IMG/VR virus record: IMGVR_UViG_3300050123_000024
Span: 1-40,017 of that record
Reading direction: 5' to 3' (one strand)
DNA length: 40,017 nt
DNA from: a virus
Positions 8,001-23,613 of the stretch are shown here, in pieces. The notes below the pieces were generated by a model. That model saw only the letters and a list, made by a program, of their open reading frames with translations. It was not told the DNA's origin and did no database searches. Position 1 is the stretch's first letter. Each line of letters opens with the position of its first letter. A program made the position numbers and the translations under genes.

Positions 8001-9149
8001 TCATCCTTTTCTTTTAAAAGTTAGCACCTTGTGAGTTTGGCTTTTTTCTTTTTCTATTGCTTCTAATTGCAAGTCAAAATTTTTGAACGAACTGTCGATA
8101 GCAGTAATTTTGTTATCATTATCTTCACTTATCATAGTTCCGTATAGATCTAATGTTTGTGTACTTTTACTGTGACCTAAGACATTTTGTAATTCTCTTA
8201 GCGATAAGTTCTTGTTTGTAAAGAATACAAATGTATGCCTTAAACAATGTGGGGTTGCATATATTTCTGCTCTTTCAGCAAATCGTCTAACCATTGTATA
8301 ATATGCACCAGGCTTTAACATGTTAGATTCATTGTTTGGGAATACAAGTTCAAAGTTTTGATTATGTTCTTTTTGTAACATATTCTTTTGACCCTTTAGG
8401 TATTCAACAGCTTTACTCGACAACGGCACATAGTGAACCTTCCCTGATTTTGTATCCCCTAACCCTGTTACACTGTCGGACTTGTCTACTGTTATCTGTT
8501 TATTAATAACGTCTATATCAGCCCATTTTAGAGCTAGTAGTTCACCTCTTCGCAGTCCAGTAACTAGCAAAAATCGAATAGACCATATCCATCTGCTATT
8601 CTCCATAGCTTTAAACAATTTACTCATTTCAGATACGGTTAATGTTTTACGCTCCTTTGCCTGCTTATTGGGTATTTCTATATCTTTATTCACTGGGTTT
8701 ACTGCAATAACATGTTCAGCCAACGCTTTTTGAAAAGCCAAACGCATAACATTTCTTGTCTGTCCCATTGTACTGGTAGCCCGTCCTTTTCTCGCCATTT
8801 TAGAAATTACGCTTTGAATATCTTTAGTGGAAACTTTCTGCATAAACCTATTTCCTAAAACAGGCTTTATATGGACCTTATATAAAGATTCATATTGATT
8901 ATATGTCCCGTCTTTTTTGAGTGGTGGTTTAATGTATGTTTCTAGCCACTCAGTAAACCAACTATCAACAGCGTATTTTTCTTTAATAATAGGAATGTCC
9001 GCAACAGCTTTTACTTTTAACTGTAACTCTTTCAATGTTTTAGCGGTTAAATATCTTATCTCTCCATTGATTTGTTGCGACCATTGAACACGACCATCTG
9101 GCAAGTCTTTATAACTTCCCTGCCCGTTTGGATTTCTTTTTTTAGACAT
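8001..9149 (-). CDS. int: Tyrosine site-specific integrase
   Basis: This 382-residue recombinase inserts and excises the phage at attP/attB. The N-terminus has the AP2-like arm-binding start NPNGQGSYKDLPDGRVQW, then a SAM-like core-binding domain (about 62-150), then the catalytic domain. The active-site set is visible: R200 (TGLRRGELLAL), K234 (TKSGK), H301 and R304 (HCLRHT), H326 (LGHSK) and nucleophile Y336 (LDLYG). The gene starts one base after the repressor stop, with AAGGAG upstream, so int and repressor form one leftward operon. Confidence 0.96.
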   Translation of the reverse strand: MSKKRNPNGQGSYKDLPDGRVQWSQQINGEIRYLTAKTLKELQLKVKAVADIPIIKEKYAVDSWFTEWLETYIKPPLKKDGTYNQYESLYKVHIKPVLGNRFMQKVSTKDIQSVISKMARKGRATSTMGQTRNVMRLAFQKALAEHVIAVNPVNKDIEIPNKQAKERKTLTVSEMSKLFKAMENSRWIWSIRFLLVTGLRRGELLALKWADIDVINKQITVDKSDSVTGLGDTKSGKVHYVPLSSKAVEYLKGQKNMLQKEHNQNFELVFPNNESNMLKPGAYYTMVRRFAERAEIYATPHCLRHTFVFFTNKNLSLRELQNVLGHSKSTQTLDLYGTMISEDNDNKITAIDSSFKNFDLQLEAIEKEKSQTHKVLTFKRKG

Positions 9150-14652: not shown

Positions 14653-14960
14653 GACACGGAATACCCGCTAAGCTACGAAAGCAAGTATACGAGCGGTCAA
14701 ATATGTTATGTGAAAATTGTACAGGGCATGAGGGGTTGAACATTCACCATATCATTAAGCGAAGTACATGGAGAGAGACTGAAAATATCAATAGCTTAAT
14801 CCTTCTTTGCCATGAGTGCCACCATAACAACATTGAGAACGGAAACGGAAATTTACGCATGAAATTAAAACTAGGTCTGCAACTGACTTATTTTGAGATG
14901 GGATATACAAACGAGGAAACCATGGTTTTAATGGGAGGATGGCTATATTATGAAGAATAG
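14649..14960 (+). CDS. HNH-fold nuclease (NinG/Rap position)
   Basis: GTG start overlaps the ERF stop (GTGA). CENCTGHEG-LNIHHIIKRSTW, then NSLILLCHECHHNNIENGNG, form a beta-beta-alpha metal (HNH) nuclease core with two Cys pairs that bind structural zinc. The catalytic His is in IHHI. Its position in a recombination module next to ERF suggests a recombination endonuclease like NinG, rather than a homing nuclease. Confidence 0.85.
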   Translation: MRHGIPAKLRKQVYERSNMLCENCTGHEGLNIHHIIKRSTWRETENINSLILLCHECHHNNIENGNGNLRMKLKLGLQLTYFEMGYTNEETMVLMGGWLYYEE

Positions 14961-15576
14961 AGGGCAGGACATGTTTAATAAAATTTATACGCTGGAATGT
15001 TTAAACGGTATGGGTTGGTTGGGTGATAACAGTGTCGACTTAGTATTTACAAGTGTTCCATTTAAAAACGAGGATGCGAATGTAAAGACAGATAGTGAAT
15101 ATTGGGATTTATATAGCAAGTGGCATAAAGAAATGTTGCGAGTAGCCAAAAACGCAGTAATTGTAATTCAATCTCCATCAAGGATGAATGAACAGATAAA
15201 AAGGTTCGAGCCGAAACGCACAATGATATGGGGCAAGGGCGTAATTATGAATCATAGCAGATATAATCCTATATTTGTATATCAGCTGACAGACGATTAC
15301 AAGATAAATAAATACATATGGTCAGATACGTTTGGGGTTGACCCTGTGGCTAGTTATAAAAGATGTGGAATAGAGAAAGTACATAAATATCAAGACCCTG
15401 TTTTATTGTACGAAACAGTTTTGAAAATGTTTAAAGATTGTAAAACAGTTCTAGACCCGTTCATGGGAAGTGGCACAACCGCCATAGCTTGCAAAAACTT
15501 AAACCTTAGTTATATAGGGTTTGAAATTGATAGAAATTATGTTGAATTGGCCAATAAGAGATTGGAGGGCGCATGA
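14950..15576 (+). CDS. N4/N6-type DNA methyltransferase
   Basis: It transfers methyl from AdoMet to an exocyclic amine of C or A. Motif IV (residues 34-38) reads TSVPF rather than the usual TSPPY, and motif I near the C-terminus is LDPFMGSGTTAIA (169-181), followed by YIGFEID. The order (IV before I) is the beta-class seen in N4-cytosine enzymes. At 208 residues it is short and lacks a clear target-recognition domain. The altered Pro-Pro pair may change or abolish catalysis. ATG 14971 is an alternative start. Confidence 0.88.
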   Translation: MKNRGQDMFNKIYTLECLNGMGWLGDNSVDLVFTSVPFKNEDANVKTDSEYWDLYSKWHKEMLRVAKNAVIVIQSPSRMNEQIKRFEPKRTMIWGKGVIMNHSRYNPIFVYQLTDDYKINKYIWSDTFGVDPVASYKRCGIEKVHKYQDPVLLYETVLKMFKDCKTVLDPFMGSGTTAIACKNLNLSYIGFEIDRNYVELANKRLEGA

Positions 15577-16121
15577 AAACGACAAGTAACACTATCCGCT
15601 TATCTTTCAACGAAAAATCAATGCCCGAGTTTACTTTAACACTTAATTGTAGCAGAGTAGACGCGATAAAATATGCTACTGAATTAAGGGAGATATTAGG
15701 CAAAGATAAAACGCTGACGGTTGAAATTAAACAGTTTCGTAAAATAAGAAGTCTTGACGCAAATTCGTACGCATGGGTATTAATCTCCAAAATAGCCGAT
15801 ATAGTCCGCACGAGCAAAGAAGAATTATACATTGAAATGCTAAAGAAATATGGACAACGTGAAAAACAATTACTTTCAGTTTTGGCAGATGCCGTTGATA
15901 TGATTTTCAGGGCAACAAATAATCATTGTGTAGAAATTGGTGAAAGCGAATTAAACAGTAAAACATTCAAACATTTAGCGATATTGAAAGGTTCAAGCGG
16001 ATATGATTCAAAGGAGTTTAGCATTTTTCTTGATGGCATAATCTCTGAATGTAAGGAACTTGGGATTGATACGGTGACTGAAAGTGAGAAAAATTTACTT
16101 TTGAAGGAGTGGGGTAAATGA
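15573..16121 (+). CDS. NinB-like recombination protein
   Basis: The 182-residue protein has RSLDANSYAWVLISKIADI, TSKEELYIEMLKKYG and a C-terminal EFSIFLDGIISECKELGIDT, which fit the pattern of NinB/Orf-like proteins of Firmicute phages. NinB binds ssDNA and works with phage annealing proteins. Gene order with ERF, HNH and RusA supports the call. Overlaps of 4 bases with both neighbours show tight coupling. Similarity is recalled from the family pattern. Confidence 0.55.
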   Translation: MKTTSNTIRLSFNEKSMPEFTLTLNCSRVDAIKYATELREILGKDKTLTVEIKQFRKIRSLDANSYAWVLISKIADIVRTSKEELYIEMLKKYGQREKQLLSVLADAVDMIFRATNNHCVEIGESELNSKTFKHLAILKGSSGYDSKEFSIFLDGIISECKELGIDTVTESEKNLLLKEWGK

Positions 16122-16873
16122 ATCACTTAAGTTTGTTTACAGGCATAGGTGGAATTGATTTAGCTGCTGAATGGGTGGGATTTACGACAGTTGGTCAATG
16201 TGAATTTGCTGATTACCCTACTAAAATATTAGAAAAACACTGGCCGTCTGTGCCAAGGTGGAGGGATATACGAGATGTCACAAAGGAAAGTTTTACAGAA
16301 AAAACAAGACTGCGAACAATTGAGCTTATTAGCGGAGGATTTCCTTGTCAGCCTTTTAGTATCGCCGGGAAGCGAAAAGGCAAAGATGATGACCGTTACC
16401 TCTGGCCGGAAATGCTTAGAGTTATATCAGAACTCCAACCCAGTTGGGTTATTGGTGAAAATGTTGCTAACATCCTCAATATGGGAGTCGAATCATGTAT
16501 ATCTGACTTGGAGAATATCGGATATGAAGTACAAATTTTTGTTATTCCAGCTTGTGCCGTCCAGGCTAACCACAGAAGAAACAGAGTGTTTATTATTGCC
16601 AACTCCAAGAGCAAGCGACGGCTTTGCGTGGGAAAGGATAGGGAGAAACGATATGCAGACATCAATTTCAAAATCGGTCAAGAAATTAGGGGATATACGC
16701 TTGATTTATTATCTGATGTATCTGAGTTTTTCGATAATCCAGTGTGCGGAATACGCAGAAACGATGATGGGCTTTCCGAAGGGGTGGACAGACTTAAATG
16801 TTTAGGAAACGCAGTAGTACCGCAACAAGTTTACCCAATATTAAAAGCAATCTATGAAATAGAAAGAAGGTGA
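16118..16873 (+). CDS. DNA cytosine-5 methyltransferase (Dcm type)
   Basis: Motif I LFTGIGGIDLAAE (residues 6-18), motif IV GGFPCQPFS with nucleophile C77, motif VI ENV (114-116), motif VIII ANHRRNRVFI (150-159) and motif X LGNAVVPQQ (about 231-239) are all present. The enzyme methylates C5 of cytosine, probably to protect phage DNA from restriction. At 251 residues the target-recognition region between motifs VIII and X is very short. A different frame over 16275-16805 is also open and protein-like; see the separate entry. Confidence 0.94.
   Translation: MNHLSLFTGIGGIDLAAEWVGFTTVGQCEFADYPTKILEKHWPSVPRWRDIRDVTKESFTEKTRLRTIELISGGFPCQPFSIAGKRKGKDDDRYLWPEMLRVISELQPSWVIGENVANILNMGVESCISDLENIGYEVQIFVIPACAVQANHRRNRVFIIANSKSKRRLCVGKDREKRYADINFKIGQEIRGYTLDLLSDVSEFFDNPVCGIRRNDDGLSEGVDRLKCLGNAVVPQQVYPILKAIYEIERR
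16275..16805 (+). CDS. Candidate overprinted gene inside the m5C methyltransferase
   Basis: In the second frame, ATG 16275 follows TGGAGG by 11 bases and the ORF runs 176 codons to TAG 16805. The product contains YLTWR, LLFQLVPS, TEETECLLLPTPRASDG and MMGFPKGWTDL in that order. I remember these motifs from phage proteins annotated as methyltransferase-associated C-terminal parts. The main frame over the same bases holds motifs VI to X. Both frames look family-conserved, so this may be a true overlap or the trace of an old frame change. No direct proof of translation is possible from sequence. Confidence 0.4.
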   Translation: MSQRKVLQKKQDCEQLSLLAEDFLVSLLVSPGSEKAKMMTVTSGRKCLELYQNSNPVGLLVKMLLTSSIWESNHVYLTWRISDMKYKFLLFQLVPSRLTTEETECLLLPTPRASDGFAWERIGRNDMQTSISKSVKKLGDIRLIYYLMYLSFSIIQCAEYAETMMGFPKGWTDLNV

Positions 16874-22757: not shown

Positions 22758-22820
22758 TTGACATTAACAATAAAATAATGTTAAATAATACTTGACAAAC
22801 GTCATGACAAGATATATTAT
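22758..22820 (+). promoter_or_regulatory. Two promoters of the small operon that holds the CRISPR-like repeat
   Basis: Promoter 1: TTGACA (22758-22763), 17 bases, TTAAAT (22781-22786). Promoter 2, the stronger: TTGACA (22792-22797), 17 bases, TATTAT (22815-22820), placing a start near 22827. Between its two boxes lies GTCATGAC (22801-22808), an 8-bp palindrome, within CTTGACA-N7-TGACAAG, an imperfect dyad. This is a good operator for the ribbon-helix-helix protein encoded two genes on. Confidence 0.75.
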
Positions 22821-22853
22821 AGGTATATCAAATAAATGGCGGAGGGAAACAAA

Positions 22854-23027
22854 ATGAGAAAAGTTTATTGTCAATATTGCGGAGAGTTATTAGAAAATAG
22901 TTGTGATTGTGAAAGAGAGTTAGCAGAAGAAAGAGAACAATTCATTGAAGATTATGAAAATAGTCCCGAAACTCAATATGGATGGGCACAACAAGATTTA
23001 ATAGATACGCGGAGGCGTGAACAATGA
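22854..23027 (+). CDS. Small zinc-ribbon-like protein, 57 aa
   Basis: GGAGGG precedes ATG 22854 (an in-frame ATG at 22836 lacks a site). CQYCGELLENSCDCE gives four Cys for zinc; the rest is acidic. It is the first gene of the small operon. Function unknown; in this context an anti-CRISPR role is possible but not shown. Confidence 0.6.
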   Translation: MRKVYCQYCGELLENSCDCERELAEEREQFIEDYENSPETQYGWAQQDLIDTRRREQ

Positions 23028-23191
23028 GCGACACAAGAAGAACATTCCGCATGACAGATGAAGAATACGAAGCATTAAGGATACAAGCTGAGAAGCTAGG
23101 AACAGACCGCACAGGATATATAAAGCTGATAGTAGCATTAGATACAGCAACAGAGATAATAAGAAAGCTGAGGGAACAAGATGAAAGTTAA
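23024..23191 (+). CDS. Ribbon-helix-helix putative repressor, 55 aa
   Basis: The layout RRTFRMTDEEYEALRIQAEKLG, then TGYIKLIVAL and a helix, is a ribbon-helix-helix fold (strand RTFRMT, two helices). Such small proteins bind short palindromes and repress their own operon. It could act on the dyad inside the promoter at 22792. In anti-CRISPR loci small DNA-binding 'Aca' proteins play this part. It overlaps its neighbours (ATGA, and 11 bases with the next). Confidence 0.7.
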   Translation: MSDTRRTFRMTDEEYEALRIQAEKLGTDRTGYIKLIVALDTATEIIRKLREQDES

Positions 23192-23333
23192 AATGTTAAT
23201 TAATAAAAGAATATCGCTGAAAAAGGGTAATATATATGATGCAAGGGAAAGAGATAAGAATTCATTGTGGGTAAAAGATTTGAAAAATGATGAGTGGGTT
23301 GTCAGTAAAAAACAAATAGAGATTGTCAATTAA
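23181..23333 (+). CDS. Small basic hypothetical protein, 50 aa
   Basis: It starts inside the end of the ribbon-helix-helix gene. The sequence KVKMLINKRISLKKGNIYDA, with WVVSKKQIEIVN at the end, suggests a small beta barrel. Function unknown. The CRISPR-like repeat lies 20 bases after its stop, in its terminator. Confidence 0.55.
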   Translation: MKVKMLINKRISLKKGNIYDARERDKNSLWVKDLKNDEWVVSKKQIEIVN

Positions 23334-23340
23334 AAAAATT

Positions 23341-23408
23341 AAAGGAATCCTAAGTTTTAGAGCTGTGTTGCTCTAAATGGTATTAAAACTTGTGGGTTTC
23401 TTTTTTTA
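23341..23408 (+). terminator. Terminator hairpin containing the CRISPR-like repeat
   Basis: AAAGGAATCC (23341-23350) pairs with GGGTTTCTTT (23394-23403), and AAGTTTTA (23352-23359) pairs with TAAAACTT (23384-23391), an 18-bp stem broken by a 1x2 internal bulge. T residues follow to 23407. Inside is a second small hairpin, GAGC (23360-23363) with GCTC (23370-23373). So the repeat is in the transcript's 3' end, folded as the terminator. Confidence 0.8.
23354..23389 (+). CRISPR. Solitary type II-A-like CRISPR repeat, candidate RNA anti-CRISPR
   Basis: Exactly 36 bases, the type II-A length. It begins GTTTTAGAGCTGTGTTG (first 17 bases as I recall the S. thermophilus CRISPR3 repeat), has AATGGT at positions 23-28 and ends TTAAAAC. 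Against that repeat I count 29 of 36 matches; the seven differences fall at positions 18, 20-22 and 29-31. Here positions 18-22 create a hairpin with the preceding GAGC. There is no second repeat, spacer or cas gene. It lies in the crRNA sense with respect to the promoter at 22792. A decoy for tracrRNA/Cas9 is the best explanation; see the finding. Confidence 0.75.
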
Positions 23409-23430: not shown

Positions 23431-23613
23431 ATGAGAACATACATTATACACTGGATAAGATTAATAACGTGCCAAGATTGTGCATTGCAATATATAGATG
23501 CTAACGACACGAAAAAGAGAATATTAGCACAGGACAGAAGGACGAGACCGAAATGCCGAGGTTGCCCGAGATTGGATAAAACACTGGAGCGATATTATGA
23601 GGTAGGGACATGA
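23431..23613 (+). CDS. Small basic Cys-containing protein, 60 aa
   Basis: AAGAGGATAAC precedes the ATG. CQDCALQYIDA and CRGCPRLDKT form a possible four-Cys zinc site; the centre is basic. It is the first gene after the repeat-bearing terminator. No family recognised. Confidence 0.55.
   Translation: MRTYIIHWIRLITCQDCALQYIDANDTKKRILAQDRRTRPKCRGCPRLDKTLERYYEVGT

Follow-up and report, generated by a model that had tools for sequence, protein, structure and literature searches.

Solitary repeats on viral sequences

Single repeats of the clustered regularly interspaced short palindromic repeat (CRISPR) kind are found on viral sequences for all CRISPR types except type VI, with 2,103 of them recorded in the survey of Camara-Wilpert et al. 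2023 (PMC10651486). The solitary repeats that were tested as Cas inhibitors, known as Racrs, belong to types I-C, I-E, I-F and V-A, and the main text of the survey names no test of a type II-A repeat (PMC10651486). The element described here lies in a stretch of viral DNA of 40,017 nucleotides (nt), positions 1 to 40,017 of the IMG/VR virus record IMGVR_UViG_3300050123_000024, which is referred to below as the window. It is a 36-nt sequence, GTTTTAGAGCTGTGTTGCTCTAAATGGTATTAAAAC, at 23354..23389 on the plus strand, and to judge from its sequence it is almost certainly a solitary type II-A CRISPR repeat. An initial annotation of the window, made without searches, had seen no description of this form for type II-A; type II solitary repeats were in fact already catalogued in 2023, though they were not among the types that were tested (PMC10651486). 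In the literature searched, which was thinly covered for subscription journals and preprints, no paper was found that functionally tests a type II solitary repeat, II-A included, or that proposes a guide taken from the flank and a junction at the protospacer-adjacent motif (PAM).

The element resembles the Racrs in being one intergenic, virus-borne repeat without an array, with a promoter-like site upstream and with a known repeat to which it is at least 90% identical (PMC10651486). In contrast to the tested Racrs, the repeat is held in a terminator stem-loop, its proposed route runs via the trans-activating CRISPR RNA (tracrRNA) and the sequence upstream of it would supply the guide. A second likeness is to the leader-proximal repeats of type II-A host arrays, which can yield extraneous CRISPR RNAs (crRNAs) with the upstream flank as guide, and where the leaders often form hairpins that block pairing with tracrRNA (PMC13187072). 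Both have an upstream guide that is not a spacer and a hairpin of flank and repeat that is able to block tracrRNA. Whereas the leader-proximal crRNA is a by-product at a host array (PMC13187072), the window repeat stands alone in a phage. The mini-arrays of viruses (Faure 2019 and Medvedeva 2019, cited in PMC7099407 and PMC8616872) share with the window a host-type repeat and a guide that matches a related virus. A mini-array has a spacer between two repeats, one of them possibly truncated, whereas the window has native phage sequence in the place of the spacer; this classification was rejected on account of the single repeat.

Identity of the repeat

The closest relative of the 36-mer is the array repeat (L066/L073) of an Oscillospiraceae metagenome-assembled genome (G002), with 33/36 identical positions (91.7%, over 36 nt) and the three differences confined to positions 17-19 (GCT for ATC). 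Identity is 31/36 to the repeat of Clostridium weizhouense, 31/36 to that of Brochothrix campestris and 29/36 to the CRISPR3 repeat of Streptococcus thermophilus; the comparison repeats of S. thermophilus, S. pyogenes, Enterococcus and Listeria carry the types that we take them to have. Elsewhere in the window no more than 25/36 positions agree with any of six II-A repeats, and the top match in 60 order-2 Markov sequences (40 kb, window composition) is 26/36. The view of the initial annotation that the likeness is beyond chance is thus upheld, and with II-A repeats at three mismatches the distance is well within the eight that it had allowed.

Its sequence, coordinates, strand and copy number were also correct as first given, the 17-base start of the repeat having a single match in the 40 kb window, both exactly and at ≤3 mismatches. 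The repeat is intergenic, with the preceding open reading frame (ORF) ending at 23333 and the next beginning at 23431, its surroundings are free of arrays and it runs in the crRNA sense relative to the operon, all of which agrees with its first description as a solitary II-A repeat in a phage. A tracrRNA anti-repeat was considered as well and rejected on this orientation. On identity and coverage alone, not on bit-score, the element reaches the level used for solitary repeat units (SRU), where a known, typed repeat has to be matched at 90% identity or more over 90% or more of its length, and it also has no second repeat nearby and an intergenic position. Searches for an Rfam family and for a tRNA at the element returned neither.

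A scan of 84,980 genomes, using a pattern that retained the conserved II-A positions, matched three genomes, every one of them with an array: the Oscillospiraceae genome (24 copies), C. weizhouense (13 pattern matches) and B. campestris (24 copies). The Oscillospiraceae array can be placed in subtype II-A because profile matches show cas9, cas1, cas2 and csn2 beside it. Among 298 genomes of the same family, this genome alone matched the 36-mer at ≤3 mismatches, and a search of Listeriaceae gave arrays only, among the matches listed. On the contig of the 24-repeat array in B. campestris (L070/L071, G001:C13), the match to cas9 falls into two parts and includes an internal TAA, and this Cas9 may be broken or misassembled.

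Within IMG/VR, patterns for this repeat group recovered only the phage of the window, L095 (the sequence of Streptococcus phage Javan263) and L094, which is an array at a prophage edge. Together with L094, 'phage' records of Listeria and Enterococcus were excluded as solitary repeats, since they hold multiple repeats and resemble host arrays. L089, OR847561.1 and OR846895.1 (named Listeria phage LM 4-11-1) are unverified records with several II-A repeats, and they resemble contamination by host chromosome.

Probable insertion into the loop of an intrinsic terminator

In the sister phage L003 (TerL 95%) the intrinsic terminator that flanks the element is present, but the element is not. At 43-82 of L003 the identical flanks are directly joined, ...GGAATCCTAAG|GGGTTTCTTTTTTTATGTG, so that AAAAAATTAAAGGAATCCTAAG abuts GGGTTTCTTTTTTTATGTG, and the terminator is a 10-bp stem with a 4-nt loop (-9.8 kcal/mol). 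Because of this empty counterpart, the element can be described as a discrete 39-nt insertion in the terminator loop. The minimal insertion, at 23355..23393 on the plus strand, comprises 35 nt of the repeat and TTGT, the first G of the repeat being shared, and the edges of the 36-mer coincide with the indel. Comparison with this one empty-site relative points to an insertion rather than a deletion in the window.

In the window, the intrinsic terminator that encloses the repeat spans 23341..23407 on the plus strand, with outer arms AAAGGAATCC (23341-23350) and GGGTTTCTTT (23394-23403) and a T run to 23407. It has a predicted folding energy of -22.8 kcal/mol (z -4.55), with AAAGGAATCC paired to GGGTTTCTTT, AAGTTTTA to TAAAACTT and GAGC to GCTC, and it shows the GC-containing stem and subsequent U run that define an intrinsic terminator. 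A simple terminator scan missed it because the loop exceeds the limit of the scan. The initial annotation mentioned a terminator stem that could protect the repeat; the 36-mer is itself the interior of a single long hairpin, shaped like an intrinsic terminator with an enlarged loop.

The apical hairpin, TTTAGAGC-TGTGTT-GCTCTAAA, occupies 23356..23377 on the plus strand, and the divergent repeat positions 17-19 sit in the arm that pairs with GAGC. This hairpin, which the initial annotation held to be absent from natural II-A repeats, is real but not special to the window, as the same 8 bp can be formed, with the help of G-U pairs, in the repeat of S. pyogenes. Nor is there a need for the role in RNA stability that was suggested for it: the terminator is about equally stable with the Oscillospiraceae bases at positions 17-19 (-22.3 kcal/mol), and hence the changes are not required to keep the terminator.

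A terminator of the ordinary sort, similar to a CRISPR repeat only by coincidence, would fold in this way, and the GTTTTA and TAAAAC ends of the element do suit a stem. Such a coincidence is nevertheless extremely improbable, given 33/36 identity against at most 26 by chance and element edges that fall on those of the indel.

A would-be guide and a possible PAM at the junction

Because the guide of a type II-A crRNA stands before its repeat, one repeat suffices for a crRNA, in which the upstream flank would act as guide. The would-be Cas9 guide of the window, AAAAATTAAAGGAATCCTAA, lies directly upstream of the repeat at 23334..23353 on the plus strand. It is matched 20/20 in L003, where it is followed by GGGGTTTC, the place of which is taken in the window by the repeat. 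The base run after the match in L003 is GGGG, which would serve as an NGG PAM, and it stands at the insertion point of the repeat. The guide had first been called useless, a term that does not obviously suit a sequence with a perfect match beside GGGG in a sister phage.

It appears from the 33/36 match and the clean indel that a genuine II-A repeat entered the terminator loop of a temperate-type phage. Transcription at the 3' end of the small operon would give a crRNA-like RNA with the II-A layout of guide and repeat. Host tracrRNA would pair with the repeat, RNase III would cut and Cas9 would receive, as its guide, the flanking sequence of the phage itself. Competition with host crRNAs for tracrRNA and Cas9 would be the likeliest effect, with the RNA acting as an RNA anti-CRISPR-like decoy. 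A possible further effect is the cutting of sister phages with an empty site, the carrier phage being spared as the repeat would have replaced its PAM-side bases. The crRNA-like decoy of Cas9 is our leading reading, to which we give somewhat less than an even chance, and anti-Cas9 activity is put forward as a hypothesis. If the RNA does engage tracrRNA and Cas9, Cas9 would have a small RNA as a natural modulator.

The phage collection contains just one more genuine solitary repeat of the group, that of Streptococcus phage Javan263 (GTTTTAGAGCTGTGTTGTTACGAATAGTTCCAAAAC; MK448721.1, 5029-5064). It is closest to the S. thermophilus CRISPR3 repeat (34/36), unlike the window repeat. Its relatives Javan227 and SVep1 are without a repeat at exactly that point, and the direction of insertion is firmer here because several relatives lack it. 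As in the window, a single II-A repeat in operon sense, here in an early operon, interrupts at an NGG motif a sequence that is continuous in sister phages; unlike in the window, it is placed behind the repressor region and runs up to a ribosome-binding site instead of lying in a terminator. The guide of Javan263, TAGTTGTACCTTCGCAAGAA, is matched 20/20 in SVep1 and there followed by AGG. Among 300 genomes from the class that includes Brochothrix, this guide gave one two-mismatch match, probably due to chance. The interval after the CI-like repressor is variable among L090 (Javan227), L091 (Javan231), L092 (SVep1) and L093, its contents being no repeat, a different insert (Javan231) or a II-A repeat (Javan263).

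The perfect 20-nt match with NGG in a sister phage, seen in both known cases, also fits a main function as a weapon between phages, in which repeat and upstream flank act as half a mini-array and the crRNA directs host Cas9 to superinfecting sisters with an empty site. This is unlikely, as there is a single repeat, the terminator fold has both the guide and the repeat in paired form, any PAM for the Cas9 of the actual host is an assumption and the cases number only two.

Predicted pairing with tracrRNA and the case for a decoy

On duplex energy, a candidate tracrRNA lies upstream of cas9 in the Oscillospiraceae locus L073, and L074 has a similar one; the predicted duplexes with their own repeats are -34.4 and -35.3 kcal/mol, respectively. 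For the window 36-mer and the L073 candidate the duplex is -30.1 kcal/mol. With this candidate, the isolated 36-mer has a binding gain of -17.2 kcal/mol against -4.6 +/- 2.5 for shuffles, which agrees with the pairing foreseen by the initial annotation; within the full terminator, however, the gain of -6.1 kcal/mol is at the shuffled level (-5.0 +/- 2.7). Co-transcriptional pairing, which could differ, lies outside the model.

The full-terminator value is the first of several points that count against the decoy. The terminator may hide the repeat, with its hairpin blocking loading as the hairpins of II-A leaders do, and the three differences from the Oscillospiraceae repeat both weaken the predicted pairing with tracrRNA and strengthen self-pairing of the 36-mer. 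The initial annotation looked to conservation in related phages, and the element is indeed intact in the near-identical contig L002/L007 (L007 100% over 11.7 kb), but it is missing from the sister phage L003; L004-L006 (87% TerL) gave no match at the element site, and L005 has a different terminator. In Javan227 the Javan263 guide is matched 20/20 with NGG one base later, out of register. Local NGG frequencies of 4/58 and 2/58 give about 0.002 for an in-register NGG at both L003 and SVep1, a figure that is suggestive only, because the PAM test was framed after the L003 flank had been seen and covers two cases. Moreover, NGG is an assumption for the host of the window phage, because the Cas9 proteins of G002 and G003 lack a full Arg-x-Arg PAM dyad: their C-terminal alignment has Gln-Gly-Arg and Ala-Gly-Lys, respectively, at the dyad position of S. 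pyogenes Cas9, which we take to be Arg-Lys-Arg. It is a safer assumption for Javan263, because the repeat of that phage is of the S. thermophilus CRISPR3 kind, the Cas9 of which uses NGGNG. Spacers of the G001-G003 arrays gave no convincing match to the window, related loci or phage records. As regards the phage host, TerL relatives at 45-57% identity are present in genomes from the class to which C. weizhouense belongs, and capsid and integrase searches for a host gave distant matches only.

The repeat could instead be the scar of an escape. A site targeted by a host spacer would have undergone recombination or break repair through that spacer, the adjacent repeat would have been copied and the PAM moved away, leaving a repeat that is now only part of a terminator. 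The start of the repeat falls exactly at the point where, in L003, the matching 20-mer is succeeded by NGG, and the same holds for Javan263 and SVep1; AAGAA is found on both sides of the Javan263 repeat and includes the bases that would separate a Cas9 cut from the PAM; terminator folding tolerates the repeat whether it has its native bases or not; and the hairpin reduces predicted pairing with tracrRNA. On the other side, no host spacer that matches either site was found in the few genomes that could be searched, the right flank of the window (TTGT against TAAG) is not an exact duplication and 33/36 conservation, the 3' half included, is high for a scar that has long been inert, although it could be recent. 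An escape scar is a serious alternative that follows the decoy at somewhat lower probability, and the two could hold in sequence.

The L003 and SVep1 junctions suggest, at the level of sequence, that a junction of spacer and repeat was captured from a host array and then became a decoy crRNA, a weapon or an escape scar. In its general form, which we consider a rather doubtful extrapolation, the solitary II-A repeats of phages would all be junctions captured from a targeting host array: the PAM is separated, the phage escapes and it keeps a one-repeat crRNA gene against sisters with an intact target. Should the pattern of PAM junctions hold in more cases, it would reveal a route by which phages acquire repeats, in which an escape event could create a guide against competing phages.

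Genomic setting

The window is a virus record with terminase, portal, tyrosine integrase, ERF recombinase and cytosine methylase genes. The small operon that the terminator closes is preceded by a promoter-like site, TTGACA-17-TATTAT, at 22792..22820 on the plus strand. This was initially described as a strong promoter and is the best consensus match in the region (11/12), but such matches are not in excess regionally, with 23 found against 27.5 expected in shuffles. Between the site and the terminator lie three small ORFs of 63, 55 and 50 amino acids (22836..23333, plus strand), the second of which has a weak resemblance, below the cut-off, to NikA-like mobilization proteins.

The repeat is followed by the gene of a small CxxC protein (23431..23613, plus strand) and lies upstream of the small terminase gene. 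A gene similar by eye to the CxxC gene is found at 238-411 of L003, after the empty-site terminator, and its position after the terminator in both phages supports their synteny.

Another conceivable role of the repeat is that of an attachment site through which the phage would integrate into a CRISPR array of the host. The tyrosine integrase gene (8001-9149) is about 14 kb from the repeat, whereas attP normally adjoins the integrase, and this role is accordingly very improbable.

Two close DNA methyltransferase-like genes are found at 14950-15576 (judged by eye) and 16118-16873 (a C-5 cytosine methylase, Pfam PF00145). Further repeats of CRISPR character were observed on other mobile elements. 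Streptococcus satellite phage Javan624 (L096, MK448584.1) has, at about 1355-1790, some six or seven II-A-like repeats in a degenerate array, which is flanked by small ORFs and by the gene of a helicase loader; several of its spacers are palindromic. At 1001-1100 of the Enterococcus faecium plasmid NZ_CP064407.1 (L097), a CRISPR-like repeat with a different sequence, TTTTAGAACCATGCTGTTTTGTATGGTTCTAAAAC, and a shorter copy of it are accompanied by one spacer, an arrangement that resembles a plasmid mini-array.
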